DNA of 36,436 bases from a virus. Below, one piece after another: positions 7,038 to 16,474 of the stretch. Position 1 is the first letter of the stretch. Every line of letters begins with the position of its first letter. The position numbers were made by a program, and so were the translations under genes. The notes below the pieces were generated by a model. It made no database searches and was not told the DNA's origin. It saw nothing but the letters and a program-made list of their open reading frames with translations. Location: the IMG/VR virus record IMGVR_UViG_3300032322_000749, positions 1 to 36,436 of that record. One strand, 5' to 3'.

Positions 7038-7565
7038 ATGGAGTGGATTATCCGCCTGTTCGCAGGCTTGACGGCAACGTTCGCACTTGTGGGCTTTTGG
7101 GGGATGTCCGAACCGACCCCTCCCACACCTACCCCCACCCCCGTAACGACGCTTATAACGCTTCCTATTGCGCCTGAGACGGTACCTACCACCACTTTGC
7201 CGATACCGGCAGATGCCCTCTGCCCCCAATGGTGGGCCTTGGCTGTCGAGGCAGGCTGGACACCCGACCTCCTCCCCACCCTCGACTATGTGATGTGGCG
7301 CGAGTCCCGATGCCAGCCCGAAGCACACAACACCACCCTCAACCGAGATGGCTCAGCCGACGTCGGCCTCACCCAAATCAACGACCGAAGCTGGTGCAAA
7401 GGCACACGCTGGTATCCAGAAGGATACTTGCAAACCGTCGGCGCATTATCTACTGTTGGATGCGAACAACTATTCGACCCATACCTCAACCTCCTCTCAG
7501 CGAAAGCCATCTACGACTATGCGCAAACAACCAACGGAAACGGATGGCAACCGTGGAAACTCTAA
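7038..7565 (+). CDS. Secreted or anchored lysozyme/transglycosylase-like protein
   Basis: A 175-aa protein behind a clear AAAGGGG ribosome binding site. Residues 4-22 form a signal-anchor helix, then a Thr/Pro-rich linker (TPPTPTPTP, residues 27-58). The C-terminal domain resembles SLT-type lysozymes: MWRESRC with candidate catalytic E89, ADVGLTQIN (108-115), and a late helix (YLNLLSAKAIYDYA). Four cysteines may form disulfides outside the membrane. It should act on peptidoglycan from the outer face of the membrane. Unlike the endolysin it is encoded among early genes, so it may serve wall remodelling or superinfection control rather than terminal lysis; that is inference. Confidence 0.8.
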   Translation: MEWIIRLFAGLTATFALVGFWGMSEPTPPTPTPTPVTTLITLPIAPETVPTTTLPIPADALCPQWWALAVEAGWTPDLLPTLDYVMWRESRCQPEAHNTTLNRDGSADVGLTQINDRSWCKGTRWYPEGYLQTVGALSTVGCEQLFDPYLNLLSAKAIYDYAQTTNGNGWQPWKL

Positions 7566-7575
7566 GTACACGTAC

Positions 7576-7833
7576 ATGCAACTGCTAAGCGAATGGGAAC
7601 TGGCCGACAAACACCAGGACTGGAAAGACGAAGCAGCCTGCTACGGACTCTCAGGCGACCTGTTCTTCCCAGGAGACAACAACCACTACAACCCCGAAGC
7701 GTTCACGATCTGCAACCGATGTCCGGTACGTGAACGCTGTCTAGCATTTGCAATGAACAACTACATCGCATACGGTATTTGGGGTGGAATGACCCCACCG
7801 GAACGACAACGATACAGAAGAAGCTTGTGCTAA
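7576..7833 (+). CDS. WhiB-family iron-sulfur transcription regulator
   Basis: An 85-aa protein with four conserved cysteines, C22, C46, C49 and C55 (C-x2-C-x5-C after the first), that in WhiB/Wbl proteins ligate a 4Fe-4S cluster. The G[I/V]WGG turn follows (GIWGG, 67-71), then a basic C-terminus (PPERQRYRRSLC). Wbl proteins bind the primary sigma factor and alter promoter choice. Phage copies can shut down host Wbl function. No strong ribosome binding site precedes ATG 7576; an in-frame ATG at 7519 would overlap the upstream gene. This gene is the best evidence for an actinobacterial host. Confidence 0.92.
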   Translation: MQLLSEWELADKHQDWKDEAACYGLSGDLFFPGDNNHYNPEAFTICNRCPVRERCLAFAMNNYIAYGIWGGMTPPERQRYRRSLC

Positions 7834-8771: not shown

Positions 8772-8868
8772 CACTTGCGGCTGCCCCTGCCACGCATACC
8801 GCATGGGCAAACTGACATCAGCAGACAACAACTGGAAGAAAAAGAAACCTAAAACGAAGGGGAAATAA
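8617..8868 (+). CDS. Cys-rich zinc-binding-like protein overlapping the HTH gene
   Basis: An 83-aa ORF whose first 155 bases overlap the HTH gene in another frame. Its middle has a credible zinc pattern, TCLHCGTVERALTPL followed by HDTCGCPCHAYRM: two CxxC-like pairs plus a final Cys-His. The tail is very basic (KKKKPKTKGK). The stop overlaps the methyltransferase start as TAATG, the usual junction in this phage, and the last 97 bases have no other gene. The true start may be later than ATG 8617. The Cys pattern and junction support it; the long overlap keeps confidence moderate. Confidence 0.5.
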   Translation: MASPNRKQTKLQSEWDCTQPPFGATNGGIWRTCLHCGTVERALTPLPQQIHDTCGCPCHAYRMGKLTSADNNWKKKKPKTKGK

Positions 8869-10568
8869 TGAAAGTGTTATCACTGTTCTCAGGTGTTGGC
8901 GGATTCGACCTGGGCTTAGAGGCCGCTGGTATGGAAACGGTGTTCCAATGCGAATGGGACAAACACGCCACCAACATCCTCGAAAAACATTGGCCTCACG
9001 TTCCACGGTGGGGTGACATCTCCACCCTCACCGGCAAACACATCCTCCAACACGCACCCGTCATTGACGTCGTGGCGTGGGGATCACCATGCCAAGACCT
9101 CTCCGTTGCAGGCAAACGAGCAGGCCTAGAAGGGTCACGCTCAGGACTATTCCATGAAGGTGTACGAATCATCAAAGAACTACGAAAGGAAACCAACAAT
9201 GAATACCCAAGAATCTCTATTTGGGAAAACGTCTACGGAGCACTCAACTCCAACCGAGGCGCTGACTTCGGGGTCATCCTCAACGAAATGGCTGAAGCAG
9301 GGGCGCTGGTCCAAGAATGGCGAGTCCTGGATGCACAATACTTCGGAGTCCCACAACGGCGTCGACGAGTGTTCCTCATCTCTGTCTTTGATACTGCAAC
9401 CGCAACACGATGTCCCGACCCGCTACTACCTGTCAGCGAAGGCGTGCAGTGGCATCCTGCGACGAGCCACACGACGAGGCAAACAGTTACCGGCGAGACT
9501 TCAGCAAGCTTTGGAAGCGGTAGTCAATGGCCAGCCGGCGCAAATGAACACGGAGTCCTCAGACAATCCATAAGTTCCAAATGGAGCAAAGGTTCAAGCG
9601 GACCAAGTGGCGATGAATGCATCAACATGGTTGTCGGTGCGTTGGCTGCTCGTGACTACAAAGGCGTCGGTAACCAATACGTCAACGAAGGCAAGGTCAT
9701 CGTTGAACCGTTCACCAAATCGAAGCGGCCTCAAACAGCAACCGACGACGAAACATGGGTCGCAGATCAACCCAACCCCACACTCAACGCCTTCGACCAA
9801 GGCGACACACGCACCACCACCGTCATCGTGGAAGACCCCGTGTTGATGCGTCAACGAGAAGGCAAACCAAGAGGAGGCAAAGGCCCACTCCTCTCCAACG
9901 ACAAATCATTGACCCTCTCTGGTGGCAACGACCAAACATTATTCCAACCCGCCGAAGACCCCATCGTGTTTGAGAACTCATACCGTGACGCTGCACGCAT
10001 CGCAGAAGACGGCATCACCCAAACACTCACCAGCAAAATGGGCACCGGCGGAGGCAACACACCAATGATTGCCTTCCCCATACAAGACGGACGTGAAATG
10101 GAAAAGAACCAGAACGGCATCGGAGTAGCAGACGACGGCACACCTGCGTACACCATCGACCGAACCGGTGCGCAAGCCGTCGCTTACTCTGTGCGCGAGG
10201 ATGCAAAAGCCAACACGTTCTCGGCAACCGAACTAGACAAAGCGAACTCGCTGTCGGCTCTACGCCCCAGCCCGCAATCACACCATGCCCAAATGTTCAT
10301 CGCAGAACACGTCGTCTCACCAAGCCTCACCGCCAGCAACGACCCATCAAGATCACCACAATCAGCCGAAATCACCCAACAAGTCACCGCCATCCACCAA
10401 GCCACCATGGCAGTCCGACGCCTCACCCCACTCGAATGCGAACGACTCATGGGCTGGCCCGATGACTGGACAGCAGGACAATCAGACACCCACCGATACA
10501 AACAATGCGGCAACGGCGTAGCCTCACCCGTCGCCCAATGGATTGCCCAACAACTCCTCAAACTATGA
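8868..10568 (+). CDS. DNA (cytosine-5) methyltransferase with long variable insert
   Basis: A 566-aa C5-cytosine methyltransferase. Motif I is LFSGVGGFDLG (6-16). Motif IV is GSPCQDLS with catalytic C75. Motif VI is ENV (120-122), motif VIII QRRRR (163-167), motif IX starts near RRLTPLECERLMGWP (517-531), and motif X has GNGVA (548-552). It transfers methyl groups from AdoMet to cytosine and probably protects phage DNA from restriction. The region between motifs VIII and IX (about 180-515) is unusually long. It contains repeated Thr/Leu-rich phrases (ITQTLTSKMG, KSLTLSGGN, SPSLTASND) and presumably includes target recognition. A separate gene is nested inside at 9199-9573 in another frame. 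Confidence 0.93.
   Translation: MKVLSLFSGVGGFDLGLEAAGMETVFQCEWDKHATNILEKHWPHVPRWGDISTLTGKHILQHAPVIDVVAWGSPCQDLSVAGKRAGLEGSRSGLFHEGVRIIKELRKETNNEYPRISIWENVYGALNSNRGADFGVILNEMAEAGALVQEWRVLDAQYFGVPQRRRRVFLISVFDTATATRCPDPLLPVSEGVQWHPATSHTTRQTVTGETSASFGSGSQWPAGANEHGVLRQSISSKWSKGSSGPSGDECINMVVGALAARDYKGVGNQYVNEGKVIVEPFTKSKRPQTATDDETWVADQPNPTLNAFDQGDTRTTTVIVEDPVLMRQREGKPRGGKGPLLSNDKSLTLSGGNDQTLFQPAEDPIVFENSYRDAARIAEDGITQTLTSKMGTGGGNTPMIAFPIQDGREMEKNQNGIGVADDGTPAYTIDRTGAQAVAYSVREDAKANTFSATELDKANSLSALRPSPQSHHAQMFIAEHVVSPSLTASNDPSRSPQSAEITQQVTAIHQATMAVRRLTPLECERLMGWPDDWTAGQSDTHRYKQCGNGVASPVAQWIAQQLLKL
9199..9573 (+). CDS. Gene nested out of frame inside the methyltransferase gene
   Basis: A 124-aa product read in another frame wholly within the methyltransferase. 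ATG 9199 has its own ribosome binding site (GAAAGGA, eight bases upstream). The sequence does not look like a random shadow: NTQESLFGKTS at the N-terminus, a Ser-rich centre with VDECSSSLSLIL, then RYYLSAKACSGILRR (75-89) and RRGKQLPARLQQALEAV. From memory, phage proteins encoded at or overlapping cytosine methyltransferases carry this YYLS-KACAGILRRA-RRGK-LP signature, which would mean a conserved overlapping pair. Its biochemical role is unknown. The family recognition needs a database search to confirm. Confidence 0.7.
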   Translation: MNTQESLFGKTSTEHSTPTEALTSGSSSTKWLKQGRWSKNGESWMHNTSESHNGVDECSSSLSLILQPQHDVPTRYYLSAKACSGILRRATRRGKQLPARLQQALEAVVNGQPAQMNTESSDNP

Positions 10569-10714
10569 AAAAATCTGTGCGCTACGAATGTCCACGCTGC
10601 GGCCAAACAGTAGTGCTACACGTCCAGGCGACACAGCCGCCGATGTGCAGAAACCCGAAAGCTCACGGCTCAACAGCCGTAGAAATGGCGACCCGCCCAA
10701 GAAAGAGAGAGTAA
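10565..10714 (+). CDS. Small zinc-ribbon protein (49 aa)
   Basis: Begins at the ATG overlapping the methyltransferase stop (ATGA). The peptide has YECPRCGQ followed by PPMCRN, giving three clear cysteines, plus a His downstream (KAHG), and a basic end (RPRKRE). It looks like a minimal zinc ribbon and may bind nucleic acid. It is the last plus-strand gene before the convergent minus-strand block. Confidence 0.7.
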   Translation: MKKSVRYECPRCGQTVVLHVQATQPPMCRNPKAHGSTAVEMATRPRKRE

Positions 10715-10745: not shown

Positions 10746-11024
10746 TCAAATACGTCGTTTACGCAACGGACGGAACTCCAACCGTGCCACCTCAACGATC
10801 TCAACGCCTGTCCAACCGTTCCAACTAGCAGCCACTTGTGCGGCCTCCCGTCGCCCCCACAAGTAGGCCAACCGTTTATTCTTCGTGAACGTCTCACCAC
10901 GCCACCGATACGGTCCGGCCCACCACGCCCCGTCGCGCAATCTCACCACGACAAACACCGTGTTGCGTGGTTGAGGCTGCCTAATCTTATGGGCGAGACG
11001 GCGGTAAAGATACCGTCTCATCGA
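10746..11024 (-). CDS. Basic hypothetical protein (92 aa)
   Basis: The last gene of the minus-strand block, converging on the plus-strand early genes 32 bases away. I start it at ATG 11024, overlapping the upstream membrane gene by seven bases. The product is strongly basic, with a Trp-rich middle (WWAGPYRWRGETF) and a C-terminus REAAQVAASWNGWTGVEIVEV. The beta-strand then helix pattern resembles small conserved actinophage proteins of unknown role. No ribosome binding site is obvious. Confidence 0.6.
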   Translation of the reverse strand, partial: SMRRYLYRRLAHKIRQPQPRNTVFVVVRLRDGAWWAGPYRWRGETFTKNKRLAYLWGRREAAQVAASWNGWTGVEIVEVARLEFRPLRKRRI

Positions 11025-11191
11025 CGGCGATGCCACGCACGCCACGCCAAGTAGCTGACGGCGAGAGAGCCAACGAGCCTTGCGGCCCACACTCCGTAGC
11101 CGTCGGTAGGGCTACCGGTAGTGATGCCAAGTAGGAGGGTGGCGGCGAGCGCGGTAGCCCACGCGTCGGTGAACGTCGTCCTACCGTTCAT
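11018..11191 (-). CDS. Small membrane protein (57 aa)
   Basis: From ATG 11191 the peptide has two hydrophobic segments, AWATALAATLLLGITTG (about 10-26) and VWAARLVGSLAVSYLAW (about 34-50), and a basic C-terminus (RAWHRRR). This predicts a hairpin membrane protein. It overlaps the preceding and following minus-strand genes by a few bases. Small early membrane proteins of phages may affect superinfection or host membrane functions, but nothing specific can be claimed. Confidence 0.6.
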   Translation of the reverse strand: MNGRTTFTDAWATALAATLLLGITTGSPTDGYGVWAARLVGSLAVSYLAWRAWHRRR

Positions 11192-11495
11192 CGTTGGCCA
11201 ACACGTTGCGGCATAGTTCGGTAGTGGCGTTGAGGTAGCCCTGATTCCATGCTTGCTCGTAGTACCAAAGATCGGACCATGACCAGCCTTCGGTGTTGAG
11301 GTCGGCGGGTATCTCATCGAACGGTCCTGGTATCTCATAGTTGTGGAGTGTGCCGGCTTCGGCGTTGCGTGCCCATTCGGTAGCCATGTCGTATTCGGCA
11401 GGGTCGAGCTGCCAATAGTGGTGCGCGGCCTCCACGCCGTAGTCGTACGCCATGCGTTCGATCTGAACGCGGCTCGGTGTGTCGGTGGTTTCCAT
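11181..11495 (-). CDS. Acidic hypothetical protein (104 aa)
   Basis: The start at 11495 lies in a TAATG overlap with the upstream gene. The protein is acidic and rich in Trp/Tyr/Ala (YDYGVEAAHHYWQLDPAEY, then GWSWSDLWYYEQAWNQGYL). It is probably all-helical. The composition resembles the ArdA-like protein and the 203-aa protein of the same block: acidic, aromatic, possibly DNA-mimicking. No family was recognised. Confidence 0.65.
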   Translation of the reverse strand: METTDTPSRVQIERMAYDYGVEAAHHYWQLDPAEYDMATEWARNAEAGTLHNYEIPGPFDEIPADLNTEGWSWSDLWYYEQAWNQGYLNATTELCRNVLANDER

Positions 11496-12106
11496 TAGTT
11501 GCCGCCTTCGCCGTTGTCGTCGGTCCAGAACGGTGTTGGCGCGAACTCGCCTTCGTCGGTGAACCGGCGGGTCAGTTCGTGGCACTCGCTGTATGTTTCG
11601 ATGACGTACTCGGCACTTGTGTACGCTTCGCATTGTTGGCGGGCGTAGCGGTACAGCTTGCCGTTGAGCGTGTCAATCATGTCCTGGGTAGCGTCGTAAA
11701 GGTCGCCGTGTTCGATGTATGCCTCGTCGTCGGTTTCCACGCACTCCACTCGGCTGCCGCCGTAGTTGCGGTTGCTGACGCGTGCGTAGGTGACGCCTTC
11801 GGGCCACGCCAGGTTGGGCAGGTCGGATCGGTGGAGTTTGCCTTCGATACTTGCGTGGTCGGACTGTGAGTATGAGACGGACCAGAAGATTCGTACGCCG
11901 TACTTGTCTGCGAGTTCTCGGCGGCTGAGTACGGTGCCGTCGCTGCCGGTGGCGAGCATTGCAAAGTAGCCTGCGAGGTCCTCGGTCACCATGTCGGCGT
12001 CGAGTGATTCCCACGCCTCGTTACTCAACACTTCGAGCGCACGTTTCTGTGCGTCGGGTGGTAGCTCGTCGTAGGTGTACACGTTGTGGGTTGCTGTTAC
12101 TTTCAT
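11495..12106 (-). CDS. Acidic hypothetical early protein (203 aa)
   Basis: ATG 12106 follows an AAAGGAGAAA ribosome binding site. The product is acidic and starts with VYTYDELPPDAQKRALEVL. A central IFWSVSYSQSDHASIEGKL motif precedes a Cys/Tyr-rich C-terminal half (YARQQCEAYTSAEYVIETY). Phage proteins with the Y-x-[FY]-DEL-PxAQ-A start and the SYSQSDxASIEG core recur in phage early regions (from memory) without known function. Its location beside an ArdA-like gene hints at an anti-defence block. Confidence 0.7.
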   Translation of the reverse strand: MKVTATHNVYTYDELPPDAQKRALEVLSNEAWESLDADMVTEDLAGYFAMLATGSDGTVLSRRELADKYGVRIFWSVSYSQSDHASIEGKLHRSDLPNLAWPEGVTYARVSNRNYGGSRVECVETDDEAYIEHGDLYDATQDMIDTLNGKLYRYARQQCEAYTSAEYVIETYSECHELTRRFTDEGEFAPTPFWTDDNGEGGN

Positions 12107-12126
12107 GGGTTTCTCCTTTGTTGTTG

Positions 12127-12270
12127 TTATTTGATTTCGGTTCGGGTTGAGTGTCTATGTGCGCGTCGGCGGGCGTTGCGTCGGCGTTCTTGATCTATGC
12201 CAGCGTCTTTGCCTACGAAGTAGGCGGCGATTATGAGGCCGTTAGCGAGGGCGAATACTGTCCAGGTCAT
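12127..12270 (-). CDS. Small membrane protein (47 aa)
   Basis: A 47-codon gene. ATG 12270 overlaps the stop of the ArdA-like gene (ATGA). An N-terminal transmembrane helix (WTVFALANGLIIAAYFVG, residues 3-20) is followed by a very basic tail (RRRNARRRAHRH). One membrane pass with a positive cytoplasmic tail suggests N-out topology. No homologue was recognised; support is the clean overlap junction and the membrane-protein composition. Confidence 0.6.
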   Translation of the reverse strand: MTWTVFALANGLIIAAYFVGKDAGIDQERRRNARRRAHRHSTRTEIK

Positions 12271-12851
12271 ACGCTGCGCCACGTGTGACCGGTGGCCTCG
12301 TCGTAGTAGTAGTCCATTTCTAGGTCGCGTGCGAACTTTTCATCGTCGAAGTATTGGGCGAGGTGGTCGGGTAGTTCGTCAAGAAGGCCAGCGTTGACTA
12401 TGTACTCGTTAGCACACTCTAAGAATGTGTTCCATTGGCCGCAGTAGTTGTCCGCGTCGTACTCAATGAGGCTGGCCAACTTGTCGGTGCCAAGCCAGCC
12501 GGCTAGCACGTTGATACGTTCCAGGTCGCCTGAGTCGTCGAGCTCCGCTAATACGTCGGAGTTGTTGTAGAACTCTGCCAGAGTTCGGCAGTCTGCGGGT
12601 ACGTGTTCTGTGTCGAATACGTCGAACTCGTCGCCGCCACACGCTACGCAGCGGGCGTACGTGGTGCCGCTCGGGTAGGTGGCGGGTTCGGCTTGGTGGC
12701 CGTAGGTGAGTGCGCCGTCGGTGCGCTCGGCTTCGGCTATGTCGTCGGCGGCTTCGCGGGCGGTGATCCATCGACCGACGAGCCTCCCTGAGTTGTGGCA
12801 CGATAGGCAGCCAATCCAGGCTGCCGGCTCCGTGCGGGTCGTAGTTGTCAT
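12267..12851 (-). CDS. ardA: ArdA-like antirestriction protein
   Basis: A 194-aa acidic protein. The C-terminal half matches the ArdA pattern: GWLGTDKLASLIEY, DNYCGQWNTFLECANEY, and especially YFDDEKFARDLEMDYYYDEATGH (167-189). ArdA proteins are extended DNA mimics that block type I restriction enzymes. The N-terminal domain starts WIGCLSCHNSGRLVGRWI (12-29), as ArdA does (position, small residues, N-G, WI), but it also has paired cysteines (C15-x2-C18 and C68-x2-C71) that may bind zinc. The start is ATG 12851 behind a GAGAGAGA leader; a longer ORF upstream lacks such a signal. It is first in its transcription unit. Confidence 0.8.
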   Translation of the reverse strand: MTTTTRTEPAAWIGCLSCHNSGRLVGRWITAREAADDIAEAERTDGALTYGHQAEPATYPSGTTYARCVACGGDEFDVFDTEHVPADCRTLAEFYNNSDVLAELDDSGDLERINVLAGWLGTDKLASLIEYDADNYCGQWNTFLECANEYIVNAGLLDELPDHLAQYFDDEKFARDLEMDYYYDEATGHTWRSV

Positions 12852-12872
12852 GTCTCTCTCTTTCTTTGGGTT

Positions 12873-12901
12873 GGTGGTATAGCCACCGATAACACTATCG
12901 G
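12873..12901 (-). promoter_or_regulatory. Operator-like palindromes at the ardA promoter
   Basis: Two inverted repeats lie side by side 22-50 bases upstream of ardA: GGTGG-TATAG-CCACC (12873-12887) and CCGATA-ACAC-TATCGG (12886-12901). On the minus strand GTGACT, 17 bases, then TAGTGT gives a plausible promoter whose -10 box falls inside the second palindrome. Its core GATAACACTATCG (12888-12900) recurs at the other minus-strand promoter (13661-13673) with two mismatches. This is consistent with a shared regulator binding site. Confidence 0.55.
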
Positions 12902-12909
12902 CGGTTAGT

Positions 12910-12958
12910 ACCCTAGTCACCTAATGAGGGTGAATCAGGCGCCAAGCCTGACTAGGGT
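12910..12958. repeat. 10-bp inverted repeat upstream of ardA
   Basis: ACCCTAGTCA (12910-12919) and TGACTAGGGT (12949-12958) are perfect reverse complements, 29 bases apart. A smaller hairpin (TCAGGC-GCCAA-GCCTGA, 12935-12951) lies between them. The left arm overlaps the likely -35 region of ardA. It could be a pair of operator half-sites or a terminator-like structure for the preceding minus-strand genes; no U-run follows, so a simple terminator is less likely. Confidence 0.5.
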
Positions 12959-12966
12959 CGTATTCT

Positions 12967-13134
12967 TCATCCTCCGAAGGCTCGAATGATGTCCTCCCGC
13001 ATTTCTTCGGGAGTCTGTCCCTCTACTGCCTTAGCGTGGCACGGTAGGCAACGATTCTGAGGGAATCTTTCTAGCCAATGCACCATTACGCCACACTCTG
13101 AGCATGGCGTCTCTTCTGGTTCATTGCGCCTCAT
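12967..13134 (-). CDS. Small zinc-knuckle protein (55 aa)
   Basis: ATG 13134 follows a near-perfect ribosome binding site (GGAGGTGA). The peptide has PCSECG (C11, C14) and RCLPCH (C29, C32, H33), a classic four-cysteine zinc knuckle. It ends in an acidic helix (TPEEMREDIIRAFGG). Such mini-proteins are often nucleic-acid-binding or accessory to HNH nucleases, but no HNH core is present. The start overlaps the upstream gene's stop. Confidence 0.7.
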   Translation of the reverse strand: MRRNEPEETPCSECGVMVHWLERFPQNRCLPCHAKAVEGQTPEEMREDIIRAFGG

Positions 13135-13352
13135 GCCGTCACCTCCACGACATCAAGAACGATGCTCTTCCAATCGTTCGCGTATGCGTCCATTCGGGTG
13201 AGCGCATCGTAGGCGCAATCCATGAACTCAATAGCGTCCGATTCATTCTCAAACTCCGCTACTTGGTTGTCCCAATCCAACGGGTCGGAGTTGTCGTTGG
13301 TAAGAAACGATGGTGAACCATCGACCCCCAACCTGAAAAGTATGCGGTACAT
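13131..13352 (-). CDS. Acidic hypothetical protein (73 aa)
   Basis: Starts at ATG 13352 with a strong ribosome binding site (GGAGGAGAG). The acidic product reads MYRILFRLGVDGSPSFLTND, then VAEFENESDAIEFMDCAYDA, ending in beta-prone IVLDVVEVTA. The order of beta strand, acidic helix and strand suggests a compact alpha/beta fold. It could belong to the anti-host early set; no family was recognised. Confidence 0.65.
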   Translation of the reverse strand: MYRILFRLGVDGSPSFLTNDNSDPLDWDNQVAEFENESDAIEFMDCAYDALTRMDAYANDWKSIVLDVVEVTA

Positions 13353-13363
13353 TCTCTCTCCTC

Positions 13364-13570
13364 CTATTGCCTTGAGTCGTAACGGTTAGAAGGTGAGGCA
13401 AAGAAGGTGACGCAACAATAACTACTGTCGTCGCCCTTCACGGGCTTAGCGGTTGCCTCAATGTTGAGATACCAACCGTCGTTGTCCGCAATAACGACAT
13501 GAGTCTTATCACTCAATCCTTTGAGTAGTTGTCGTAGCTGCCCAACGGTAAGTACCGGTTGGTCAGTCAT
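13364..13570 (-). CDS. Small hypothetical early protein (68 aa)
   Basis: I start this at ATG 13570 because GGGGAGGT lies about seven bases upstream and the resulting N-terminus (MTDQPVLTVGQLRQLLKGL) has the look of a known phage family with TVGQLR...L and DGWYLNI motifs. An upstream in-frame ATG at 13612 adds 14 residues and carries the same GAGAGAGACATGAC leader seen at ardA, so both starts are possible. It is the first gene of the minus-strand block. Function unknown. Confidence 0.65.
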   Translation of the reverse strand: MTDQPVLTVGQLRQLLKGLSDKTHVVIADNDGWYLNIEATAKPVKGDDSSYCCVTFFASPSNRYDSRQ

Positions 13571-13660
13571 CCCCGACCTCCCCTCAGATCCGAAAACATT
13601 CTCCCTGGTCATGTCTCTCTCTCTTTCTGTCGGCCCCTTGCCGACACCCACAAACTATCG

Positions 13661-13685
13661 GATAACCGTATCGAAATGGTGTCAA
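13661..13685 (-). promoter_or_regulatory. Minus-strand early promoter with operator-like core
   Basis: On the minus strand TTGACA (13685-13680) forms a good -35 box. The sequence downstream contains CGATACGGTTATC (13673-13661), the reverse of the GATAACnnTATCG core also present at ardA. Candidate -10 boxes (TATCCG or GATAGT) have non-ideal spacing of 15 or 20. A core lying between -35 and -10 is a classic place for a repressor site. Confidence 0.5.
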
Positions 13686-13719
13686 GCGGCCAAAAGTAAC
13701 ACAACCGCAACACAACCAA

Positions 13720-13749
13720 CCTACCCACAAGTAACCTACCCGCAAGTAA
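13720..13749 (+). repeat. Tandem 15-bp direct repeat
   Basis: CCTACCCACAAGTAA (13720-13734) is followed immediately by CCTACCCGCAAGTAA (13735-13749), identical except for one base. A related AAAAGTAAC occurs at 13692-13700. Short tandem iterons like this often mark initiator or regulator binding sites; here that is inference. Confidence 0.7.
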
Positions 13750-13919: not shown

Positions 13920-14043
13920 CACGGGGAGTCTGCCGAGGCACCCCCGCGTATGGGTATGTATAAGGGTTGTTGTGTGTGGTCATTTTTGTGGTTGGGTCTC
14001 GTGGGCCGTGAGGGTGGGTTGCTTTGTGGCGCCGTGTGTGCAC

Positions 14044-14069
14044 GGAGGGAGGTGGGTGGAGGTGGGAGG
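14044..14069 (+). other. G-rich tract with quadruplex potential
   Basis: The plus strand contains GGAGGGAGG followed by TGGGTGGAGG and TGGGAGG, with three GGG runs and many GG runs separated by one or two bases. More GGG runs lie just upstream (13980-14026). Two-layer G-quadruplexes are possible. The C-poor strand bias of the whole 13955-14070 stretch is unlike the genes on either side. Confidence 0.5.
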
Positions 14070-14316
14070 TGAATGTTATCTTTTGTGCTGCGGTGACCTG
14101 GGCCGGTTTGCGTGGTCGAGGTTGTGTGCAGATAGCAACCGAACGTATGTGAGGGCGCTAGGACAACGAGCGTATGCGAGGCGTCAGGCTCTTGACCTTT
14201 TTAGCCCCCCCAAGTTCTGTTTTACGCCTGAACCCGTCTGTCTTGATACCGAAAGAAGGCGACCACCATCGGTCCCCTTTTCAGGCCACTTGTCCCGTGC
14301 GATCTAACCATGCTGC

Positions 14317-14339
14317 CCTCACCGATAGTTGTGGTGAGG
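14317..14339. repeat. 7-bp hairpin in the noncoding hub
   Basis: CCTCACC (14317-14323), a 9-base loop, and GGTGAGG (14333-14339) form a perfect stem. There is no following T-run. Role unknown. Confidence 0.5.
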
Positions 14340-14417
14340 AGGAATGTAATCGTTTAGGGTCCGTATTCTTTGGGTGTTGTGCGCGTCTCTCGACGTGGCG
14401 GTGTTGAGTGTAGCAGG

Positions 14418-14475
14418 TGCCGGTCGACGCCAACAACCCGTCGCACAACCCATATGCGATCAACGCCGACCGGCA
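14418..14475. repeat. 9-bp inverted repeat upstream of the terminase gene
   Basis: TGCCGGTCG (14418-14426) and CGACCGGCA (14467-14475) are perfect reverse complements, 40 bases apart, ending just before the -10 box of the terminase promoter. A smaller pair (TCGCA / TGCGA) lies inside. The arrangement suits cooperative binding of a regulator or of packaging proteins. Confidence 0.55.
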
Positions 14476-14480
14476 GCGTG

Positions 14481-14506
14481 TATGCTAGCAGGCGTTCATG
14501 CCTGCT
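14481..14506 (+). promoter_or_regulatory. Terminase promoter -10 box and palindrome around the start codon
   Basis: TATGCT (14481-14486) fits an actinobacterial TANNNT -10 box. The ATG follows at 14498 with no good ribosome binding site, so the message may be leaderless or nearly so. AGCAGGC (14487-14493), loop GTTCAT, GCCTGCT (14500-14506) is a perfect 7-bp inverted repeat whose loop contains the first two bases of the start codon. Confidence 0.5.
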
Positions 14507-16474
14507 GGTCGTTCGGGGAGACGGCAAATCCCGCCACAAGACGTAGCCCGCTACTGGCAATCCAGGGCATCAGGGATGTCTATACAAGATGCGGCGAAGA
14601 TTGCTGGCATCCACCCCAACACTGCATCGCAGTGGGAAGCAAAACGACGTAAAGCTGCTGCCGAAATCAAACTTGCTGAAGTAGAAGTCGGTCAGGTTCG
14701 CAAAAAGCAGGGTGGTGTACAGAATGATGCGTGGAAACATGCGATGGATGTCGCTGATCTACCACCTGTTATCCCCTATGAGCGTCTTAGTCCGGAGGCG
14801 CAGAGGGGTTGGGATGATTTTGACTACTTTCGTCGACGCTATTTGGGGCGTGTCCCTAGCCCGTGGCAGGTAGATGCCGCATACAAGATTGTGCAAATGT
14901 TGGAATCACCGGAAAAAGAGTTCATTTGCATCAACTGTCCACCAGGAGCAGGCAAGTCGACACTGTTTCACGACTTCGCATGTTGGATGATTGTACGGAA
15001 TCGTAAGATTCGTGTGCTGATTGGTTCGGCTACGCAAACGTTGGCGAAGATGTACTCGCGTCGTATTCGTGAAACGTTGGAACGACCATTTCCTCTCAGC
15101 CCTGATCCGATTCTTGTGGAGAAAGGGTTGGCGCTCAACGCCGAAGGCTGCCTCTCTATCGACTATGGGCGTTTCAAACCGTCATCAAGTGGTGCGTTGT
15201 GGCGTGCTGAGGAGTTCATCGTTGAGCAAGAAGACTTGTCGGGTTTGGATAACAAGGAACCTACGGTGTCGTCGTATGGTATTGACTCAGAGTTCATCGG
15301 TCATCGTGCTGACCTCTGTTTGTTCGACGACGTGGCAACCCCAGAGAACGCCAAAGAGTCTGTTGCTCGCGACAAACTTTTGGAACGGTGGGATACCGTC
15401 GCTGAGGCACGCGTCGACCCAGGTGGCTTGCTCGCTGTCATCGGGCAGCGTCTCGGGCCAGGTGATCTCTACGCCCACTGTTTGTCCAAAGTGACTTACG
15501 AGGAGGACCCTGACGCGTACGACGGGTCCGACGTCACCGACATTTCCGACGTCAAAGAACCAGAAAAAAAATCCAAGTACACCCACTTTATTTACAAGGC
15601 TTACTACGACGAACTGGATACCGGCAGGGAATCTCGTAAGACTACGGCACCACCATGGCCCAACGGACCGTTACTTGACCCGTATCGTTTGTCGTGGAAA
15701 GACCTGTCGTACCTGAAACATTCGACGCCAGCCAAGTTCCAAGTCATCTACCAGCAAGAAGACATGGCACAAGGCCAATACCTGATTGAACGCGTCTGGG
15801 CGACAGGTGGCATGGGCAACGACGGTGTGCTGTACCCAGGGTGCATTGACGGTGACCGCAAAGCTGGCTACATCCCAGGCGGTCTAGAACCCCCAATCAT
15901 CTCGATTGCATCCGTAGACCCATCACCCACAAACTTTTGGGCAGTCCAATGGTGGCTATTCCAACCCAACACCAATCTGCGCTACCTGATAGACGTTGAA
16001 CGAACCAAGTTGACTGCTGAGGAGCTACTTGGTTTTGATACGTCCAGCCGACAGTACGGCGGCATAATGGAGGTTTGGCAGAACAGGTCGTTCGAGATGG
16101 GCTACCCGATCTCCCATTGGGTAGTTGAGGTCAACGCCGCCCAACGCTTCCTGTTGGCTCACGATTTCGTTCGCAAGTGGCAAGCCCTTCACGGTGTCAT
16201 GGTTGTTCCTCATACGACCTCCCGCAACAAACTAGACGAAAACCTAGGTGTCGAAGCACTACTGCCACCCCTGTGGAGAGCAGGGCAGGTTCGCTTGCCG
16301 ACGATGAGAGAAAACTGGAAGACGCTTGCCTTCATTGAGGAAATGTCCAGTTGGACTCGCAACAAAAAGAACGGAACCGACCTCGTAATGGCACACTGGT
16401 TCGCAGAACTCCACATGCCTCAACTCGGTCCGGTGAAGCGTCCACCACGCATGTGGCGCCCAACCTGGATATGA
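14498..16474 (+). CDS. Terminase large subunit with N-terminal HTH domain
   Basis: A 658-aa packaging motor. Residues about 10-50 contain a helix-turn-helix (MSIQDAAKIAGIHPNTASQWE) of the sort normally in the small subunit. The ATPase domain has Walker A CPPGAGKST (147-155) and Walker B LCLFDD (273-278). The nuclease domain shows SVDPS with D474 and VVEVN with E544, and a late conserved segment NGTDLVMAHWFAELH. The protein should recognise, cut and pump phage DNA into proheads. No separate small-terminase gene is seen nearby, so the fused HTH may do DNA recognition. It opens the late block. Confidence 0.92.
   Translation: MPAGRSGRRQIPPQDVARYWQSRASGMSIQDAAKIAGIHPNTASQWEAKRRKAAAEIKLAEVEVGQVRKKQGGVQNDAWKHAMDVADLPPVIPYERLSPEAQRGWDDFDYFRRRYLGRVPSPWQVDAAYKIVQMLESPEKEFICINCPPGAGKSTLFHDFACWMIVRNRKIRVLIGSATQTLAKMYSRRIRETLERPFPLSPDPILVEKGLALNAEGCLSIDYGRFKPSSSGALWRAEEFIVEQEDLSGLDNKEPTVSSYGIDSEFIGHRADLCLFDDVATPENAKESVARDKLLERWDTVAEARVDPGGLLAVIGQRLGPGDLYAHCLSKVTYEEDPDAYDGSDVTDISDVKEPEKKSKYTHFIYKAYYDELDTGRESRKTTAPPWPNGPLLDPYRLSWKDLSYLKHSTPAKFQVIYQQEDMAQGQYLIERVWATGGMGNDGVLYPGCIDGDRKAGYIPGGLEPPIISIASVDPSPTNFWAVQWWLFQPNTNLRYLIDVERTKLTAEELLGFDTSSRQYGGIMEVWQNRSFEMGYPISHWVVEVNAAQRFLLAHDFVRKWQALHGVMVVPHTTSRNKLDENLGVEALLPPLWRAGQVRLPTMRENWKTLAFIEEMSSWTRNKKNGTDLVMAHWFAELHMPQLGPVKRPPRMWRPTWI

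Follow-up and report, generated by a model that had tools for sequence, protein, structure and literature searches.

When phages share a syntenic locus, the genes in it are generally expected to lie on the same strand; at the locus described here, closely related phages have shared accessory genes running in opposite directions. The window, that is, the whole stretch of DNA analyzed, is the entire IMG/VR record IMGVR_UViG_3300032322_000749 (36,436 bases), from an uncultivated phage. Nine small minus-strand open reading frames (ORFs), g1 to g9, overlap or follow one another at short junctions over positions 10746-13612, between the small gene z (end 10714), next to a C5 DNA methyltransferase gene, and the gene for the large terminase, TerL (start 14498). 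One of them, g6, almost certainly encodes the antirestriction protein ArdA. On the evidence below, the locus is probably an accessory-cargo site with two alternative haplotypes, which are swapped through conserved flanks and between which individual genes have moved.

One locus, two orientations

The original prediction described a compact unit of nine small proteins that were the only minus-strand genes of the window, and both points were borne out. All nine ORFs were present, and codon usage, scanned over all of the window, placed minus-strand genes in this block and nowhere else, one spurious 39-aa ORF aside. The AT skew changed sign exactly over the block, and the ratio of nonsynonymous to synonymous substitution rates (dN/dS) against homologues was 0.06-0.53 for g1-g7, with synonymous divergence saturated for g8 and g9 not included. 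These results therefore indicated that the ORFs are genes under selection and not chance ORFs.

A TerL search returned 163 relatives, the best 80 of which were mapped; ORFs were called and genes clustered automatically, and 44 islands were scored. At the same locus, these relatives held a rapidly changing island, about 4-7 kb long, which ran leftward in 32 cases and rightward in 12. The AT skew, which is independent of ORF calling, was +0.22 to +0.37 in all rightward islands except that of L026, and -0.23 to +0.11 in leftward ones. The 44 islands together contained about 100 conserved gene families, of which 22 were found in both orientations. The g4 family occurred in 15 islands and ArdA in 6, so that ArdA is an occasional passenger of the locus, whereas family F01, to which g1 belongs, was present in 26 of the 32 leftward islands and in none of the 12 rightward ones. 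Turnover was fast even between close relatives of the same orientation, as the leftward L010 shares 95% DNA identity with the window in TerL yet only 22% of the island.

The two orientations did not follow the TerL tree, which forced at least five orientation switches, and identical TerL proteins were found with opposed islands, for example in L015 (leftward) versus L012 and L032 (rightward), and in L063, L066 and L067 (leftward) versus L064 (rightward). The comparison of the window with the rightward L002 was the most direct: on the plus strand, the left flank (WhiB to small terminase) was 99.2% and TerL 95.4% identical at the DNA level, whereas the island was 0% covered on the plus strand and 61% covered, at 87% identity, on the minus strand. 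In this inverted alignment g2 and g4 were 96-97% identical, and ArdA together with g5 81%. Misassembly is an unlikely source of the two orientations, because both forms recur across many independent samples, although the contigs are metagenomic. The leftward direction claimed for the block thus holds in the window but is not fixed, near-identical phages carrying the same genes rightward. Since the same accessory genes run one way or the other in phages whose terminases are identical, transfer between opposed operons can be traced here at the nucleotide level.

Proposed passage of genes between opposed operons

A rival account of these data is active inversion, in which a recombinase, or the phage's own annealing function acting across inverted repeats, flips the island in place and so provides two expression states. 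The same genes do lie on opposite strands at 96-97% identity, with TerL proteins that can be identical, and a 16-nt inverted repeat with 94% complementarity was found in the window at 10696-10711 and 12854-12869. This repeat, however, was not found in the rightward relatives, and border repeats were not conserved among members. The gene order did not fit either: L002 is transcribed in the order g4-g3-g2-ArdA-g5, but the window island, if inverted, would read ArdA-g5-g4-g3-g2, and the 12 families shared between orientations keep their left-right position (rho 0.62, p 0.03), albeit as a weak signal. Furthermore, rightward relatives shared 98-100% identity with one another in z, against only 59-61% with leftward relatives belonging to the same TerL group, so that the z allele, as aligned, follows island orientation and not TerL. 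No invertase and no nearby site-specific recombinase of the Gin/Cin type was recognized among the proteins searched, which covered part of the window ORFs. The gene order and the linkage of z led us to reject inversion of the whole island, and we regard active inversion as very improbable. Somewhat less remote, but still improbable, is a cassette-like mechanism that re-orients single genes in place, keeping their position and changing their strand, possibly through excised intermediates or through annealing at gene-junction overlaps. If this were so, the phage group would alternate between two kinds of control over the same anti-host genes, early-operon in the rightward form and terminase-side in the leftward form.

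Because no simple inversion fitted, the z allele tracked orientation, and rightward islands carried a sigma-70-like promoter of the TTGACA-N17-TA(A/T)AC(T) type ahead of g4, the two forms are best regarded as linked haplotypes. The leftward haplotype would have its promoter end beside the terminase and usually g1 as its last gene, and the rightward haplotype its sigma-70 promoter beside z. Near-identical genes occur in both haplotypes, and transfer between them is therefore required. We propose that entire haplotypes would be exchanged by homologous recombination at two places, one on the methyltransferase side and the other the conserved non-coding gap at 13930-14490 (plus strand), which is common to leftward and rightward relatives at about 86-97% DNA identity and is a likely recombination flank. 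Single genes or small modules would pass between haplotypes at gene junctions, and would be kept only if co-directional with the recipient operon, hence reversed relative to the genome. Junctions in the island can indeed be gene-precise, as judged from g2, whose ATG overlaps the stop codon of g3 in leftward forms but, in rightward forms, that of another gene. Nearly all genes were co-oriented within each island, which suggests that selection favors genes transcribed from the promoter of the recipient. The RecE-like exonuclease and single-strand annealing protein encoded by the phage itself (4372-6328) are candidates for the recombination machinery. Exchange between phages that carry annealing-type recombinases is well established as a source of mosaicism, which usually leaves synteny undisturbed (PMC2327257). 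The present locus resembles that process in the exchange of modules through conserved flanks and in the recombination genes carried, but differs in that the same genes at the same locus lie on opposite strands.

Besides these two recombination proteins, the window encodes a terminase, a portal protein, a major head protein, a WhiB-like protein and the C5 methyltransferase. The group probably consists of tailed, uncultivated phages of actinobacteria, a label adopted because of the WhiB-like proteins and the distant similarity of the terminase to that of Streptomyces phages (about 26% identity for TerL); a search of INPHARED for a close phage gave none.

Several points weigh against exchange of opposed haplotypes of anti-host cargo. 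The number of switches on the TerL tree could be inflated by recombination between TerL and the island. A few hybrid islands occur, in L033 and L034 (3869-4305), where rightward-type F08 and F07 genes at the left border precede a leftward island. The candidate leftward promoter region (13605-13720, minus strand), delimited upstream of g9 in an alignment of leftward relatives, contains TTGACA in the window, but the spacing to its -10 element is non-canonical, and a scan for the sigma-70 consensus gave no match there. No relative of TerL was found among genome contigs, and a search of genomes with the conserved non-coding element described below gave no match, so that no host, with or without Type I restriction-modification, was identified. 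Finally, the counter-host role of genes other than that of ArdA is guilt by association, because one island gene alone has a recognized function.

ArdA and its companions

The protein encoded by g6 (12267-12851, minus strand; 194 aa) matched PF07275 at 68.2 bits (cut-off 27; E=1.6e-18) over residues 11-184, and the same family was matched by all eight homologues aligned with it (alignment A3). The A3 profile in turn matched the structure of Orf18, the ArdA of Tn916 (PDB 2w82), with E=5.7e-9 and its best stretch at profile positions 70-176. Trp28 of g6, invariant in A3, corresponds within a G-x-LVG-x-W motif to Trp23 of Orf18, the tryptophan of ArdA domain 1 (PMC3969726). Taken together, these matches uphold the ArdA-like assignment made in the original prediction. 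The g6 protein shares with PF07275 ArdAs and Orf18 the domain profile, this tryptophan, the negative charge and the location in a mobile element, but differs in being 194 aa long with two CxxC pairs. The four cysteines (Cys15/Cys18 and Cys68/Cys71) were invariant in A3, suggesting, by their motif, that the N-terminal part contains a zinc ribbon. The first pair, in a WIGCLACYN motif, was common among the prophage and phage ArdAs inspected; the second was confined to A3 members and to L128, L136-L139 and L144, and no other ArdA inspected, from prophage or phage, had it. A tblastn search with g6 at E 1e-5 gave no match in phage and plasmid collections. The double-CxxC form is uncommon, and it is directly testable. 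Small ArdA proteins of Actinomycetota, sArdN and sArdC, have been shown to have antirestriction activity (PMC12548430); g6 has in common with them the actinobacterial ArdA branch, but is full-length and not an N- or C-terminal third.

ArdA proteins are DNA mimics that block the Type I restriction-modification of the host. By analogy, g6 would mimic DNA, inhibit such enzymes and so shield the phage from them.

The rest of the block is a mixture. Upstream of g6, g9 (13364-13570, minus strand) is the first gene of the leftward operon; a second in-frame start at 13612, with a ribosome-binding-site-like leader of its own, means that the gene is possibly longer and begins there. It is followed by g8 (13131-13352, minus strand; 73 aa), the most acidic protein of the island, and by g7 (12967-13134, minus strand; 55 aa), which has a zinc-ribbon-like CxxC...CxxC arrangement and a dN/dS of 0.06 against L021. 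Downstream lie g5 (12127-12270, minus strand; 47 aa), which accompanies ArdA in the closest relatives and is probably a membrane mini-protein with one helix and a basic tail, g4 (11495-12106, minus strand; 203 aa), g3 (11181-11495, minus strand; 104 aa) and g2 (11018-11191, minus strand; 57 aa), a hydrophobic and probably also membrane-bound mini-protein. The last gene of leftward islands, g1 (10746-11090, minus strand; 114 aa), encodes a basic protein and had a dN/dS of 0.47-0.53. Both g2 and g4 occur in either orientation. The two membrane mini-proteins and the zinc knuckle that had been predicted can accordingly be recognized in g2, g5 and g7, with ArdA adding two further CxxC motifs.

The prediction had further held that several of the proteins are acidic and rich in aromatic residues, the neighbors at 11181, 11495 and 13131 resembling ArdA in acidic composition. 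Net charge per residue was -0.144 for g3, -0.103 for g4, -0.134 for g6 and -0.164 for g8, in agreement with the claim for these neighbors, and values below -0.10 were found for four of the nine island proteins versus 2 of the 32 elsewhere in the window (Fisher p = 0.015). The most aromatic protein of the window was g3 (14.4%). The block is not uniformly acidic, however, because g1 (+0.18), g2 (+0.07) and g5 (+0.13) are strongly basic, a point absent from the original prediction. Across families the negative charge was retained with small spread (g3, -0.143; g4, -0.094; ArdA, -0.122), and the g3 family had 14 conserved acidic but 2 conserved basic positions.

None of g1-g5 and g7-g9 received a functional assignment in Pfam, PHROGs or PADLOC; g4 had a weak link to PHROG 5162, a family of unknown function. 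NCBIfam gave no match for g1, g3, g4, g8, g9 or ArdA, the six island proteins run, and named families for the eight non-ArdA proteins were rejected for want of a convincing match in these databases. Structure prediction, part of the check that had been proposed, was run for g3 and g4. The AlphaFold model of g4 was a confident alpha/beta fold (pLDDT 88.9), for which Foldseek found a single significant match, an uncharacterized Escherichia coli phage protein, and nothing in the PDB at E<=0.001. The model of g3 was all-helical (pLDDT 83.2) and had no Foldseek match in the PDB at that threshold. Neither model, therefore, resembled a solved DNA mimic. The outcome named in advance as contrary to counter-defence, namely housekeeping homologues together with folds lacking a DNA-mimic surface, did not emerge, because no housekeeping homologues were found, even though g3 and g4 had no DNA-mimic fold match. 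The closest comparison for g3 is Ocr of phage T7, which has 34 acidic and 6 basic residues among 116 (PMC4872106): g3 is likewise small, acidic and all-helical, but less dense in charge (20 acidic and 5 basic among 104) and without a Foldseek match.

Most likely the locus is a fast-evolving site of host-interaction cargo, in which an anti-host role for genes other than that of ArdA is plausible by analogy. A stronger version, possible but doubtful, makes the block a dedicated counter-defence island whose proteins, most or all of them, would act against host defences, g3, g4 and g8 being further DNA mimics like ArdA or Ocr. The presence of ArdA, the conserved negative charge of the g3, g4 and ArdA families, the small all-helical g3 with its 14 conserved acidic versus 2 basic positions and the adjoining orphan C5 methyltransferase are in keeping with it, as is the clustering of anti-defence genes in plasmid leading regions and other mobile elements (PMC11541004, PMC7648647). 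The island resembles those of plasmid leading regions in that ArdA sits in a compact set of small uncharacterized genes close to an orphan methyltransferase, but differs in having one recognized anti-defence gene, no conjugation tie and two orientations. Where such islands are defined by at least two clustered recognized genes, ArdA was the only one in the databases searched; where they are defined by small unknown genes enriched at one conserved locus, such enrichment was found here. The methyltransferase, moreover, lies outside the island and on the other strand, ArdA is present in just 6 of 44 islands, g1, g2 and g5 are basic, g4 is an alpha/beta protein unlike Ocr or ArdA by Foldseek, and acidity by itself is not diagnostic. 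The claim of an uncharacterized counter-defence set is thus sustained for a genuine ArdA and for conserved acidity in three families, and not for the set as a whole. Conversely, the island might be neutral phage cargo (morons) of mixed or no function, with ArdA as one short-lived passenger among others and orientation incidental, an account that we consider unlikely. The roughly 100 families spread over 44 islands, including 22 that occur in both orientations, and the fast turnover seen in L010 would be expected of such cargo, but a dN/dS of 0.06-0.53 for g1-g7 indicates that the genes are useful while held, and the co-oriented genes and the promoter heading rightward islands point to a functional operon. 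The locus also provides a defined place to seek new anti-host proteins of uncultivated actinophages, especially in the g3, g4 and F04 families, which are strongly conserved, acidic or widespread at the locus, and uncharacterized.

Flanks and non-coding elements

The left border of the island is formed by z (10565-10714, plus strand), a 49-aa zinc-motif gene, preceded by the C5 DNA methyltransferase gene (8868-10568, plus strand), and the right flank by TerL (14498-16474, plus strand). Leader-mediated recombination through the repeat AGAAAGAGAGAGACATG, present at g6 and g9 and inverted at the end of z, was considered and rejected, as the repeat was absent from the rightward relatives tested. 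Likewise, GATAnnnTTATC was considered as an operator at both island promoters, but its two matches in the window were not general across relatives and it was rejected. On the minus strand, GATANNNTTATC sites lie ahead of ArdA (12888-12899) and ahead of g9 (13661-13672); none of 100 shuffles reached two sites. A similar site was found in the promoter of close rightward relatives, although the motif was not general.

Just upstream of the terminase, a near-invariant non-coding block (14195-14360, plus strand) reads CAAGTTCT[G/C]TTTT[A/G]CG[C/T]CTGAACCCGTCTG... and is present as a single copy per contig in 41 IMG/VR contigs. It was kept in TerL relatives down to about 72% identity, in either island orientation, and was absent from genome contigs and without a match in Rfam. 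RNAalifold showed several compensatory pairs in its second hairpin, and the block may serve in packaging, as a cos/pac site, or be a structured RNA. TerL directly follows it in the window, with no extra gene, whereas in L002 an additional unrelated gene (F05 or similar; 7192-7757) lies between the two, with equivalents in L032, L014 and L015. In a more distant TerL group (L073, L074, L081, L082 and L085-L089), the island itself is replaced by two rightward genes, one for an AAA ATPase (PHROG 16448) and one for a PHROG 33218 protein. At the opposite flank, the C5 methyltransferase gene aligned with that of several relatives at its two ends but not in its middle, a pattern suggesting that its target-recognition region has been swapped.

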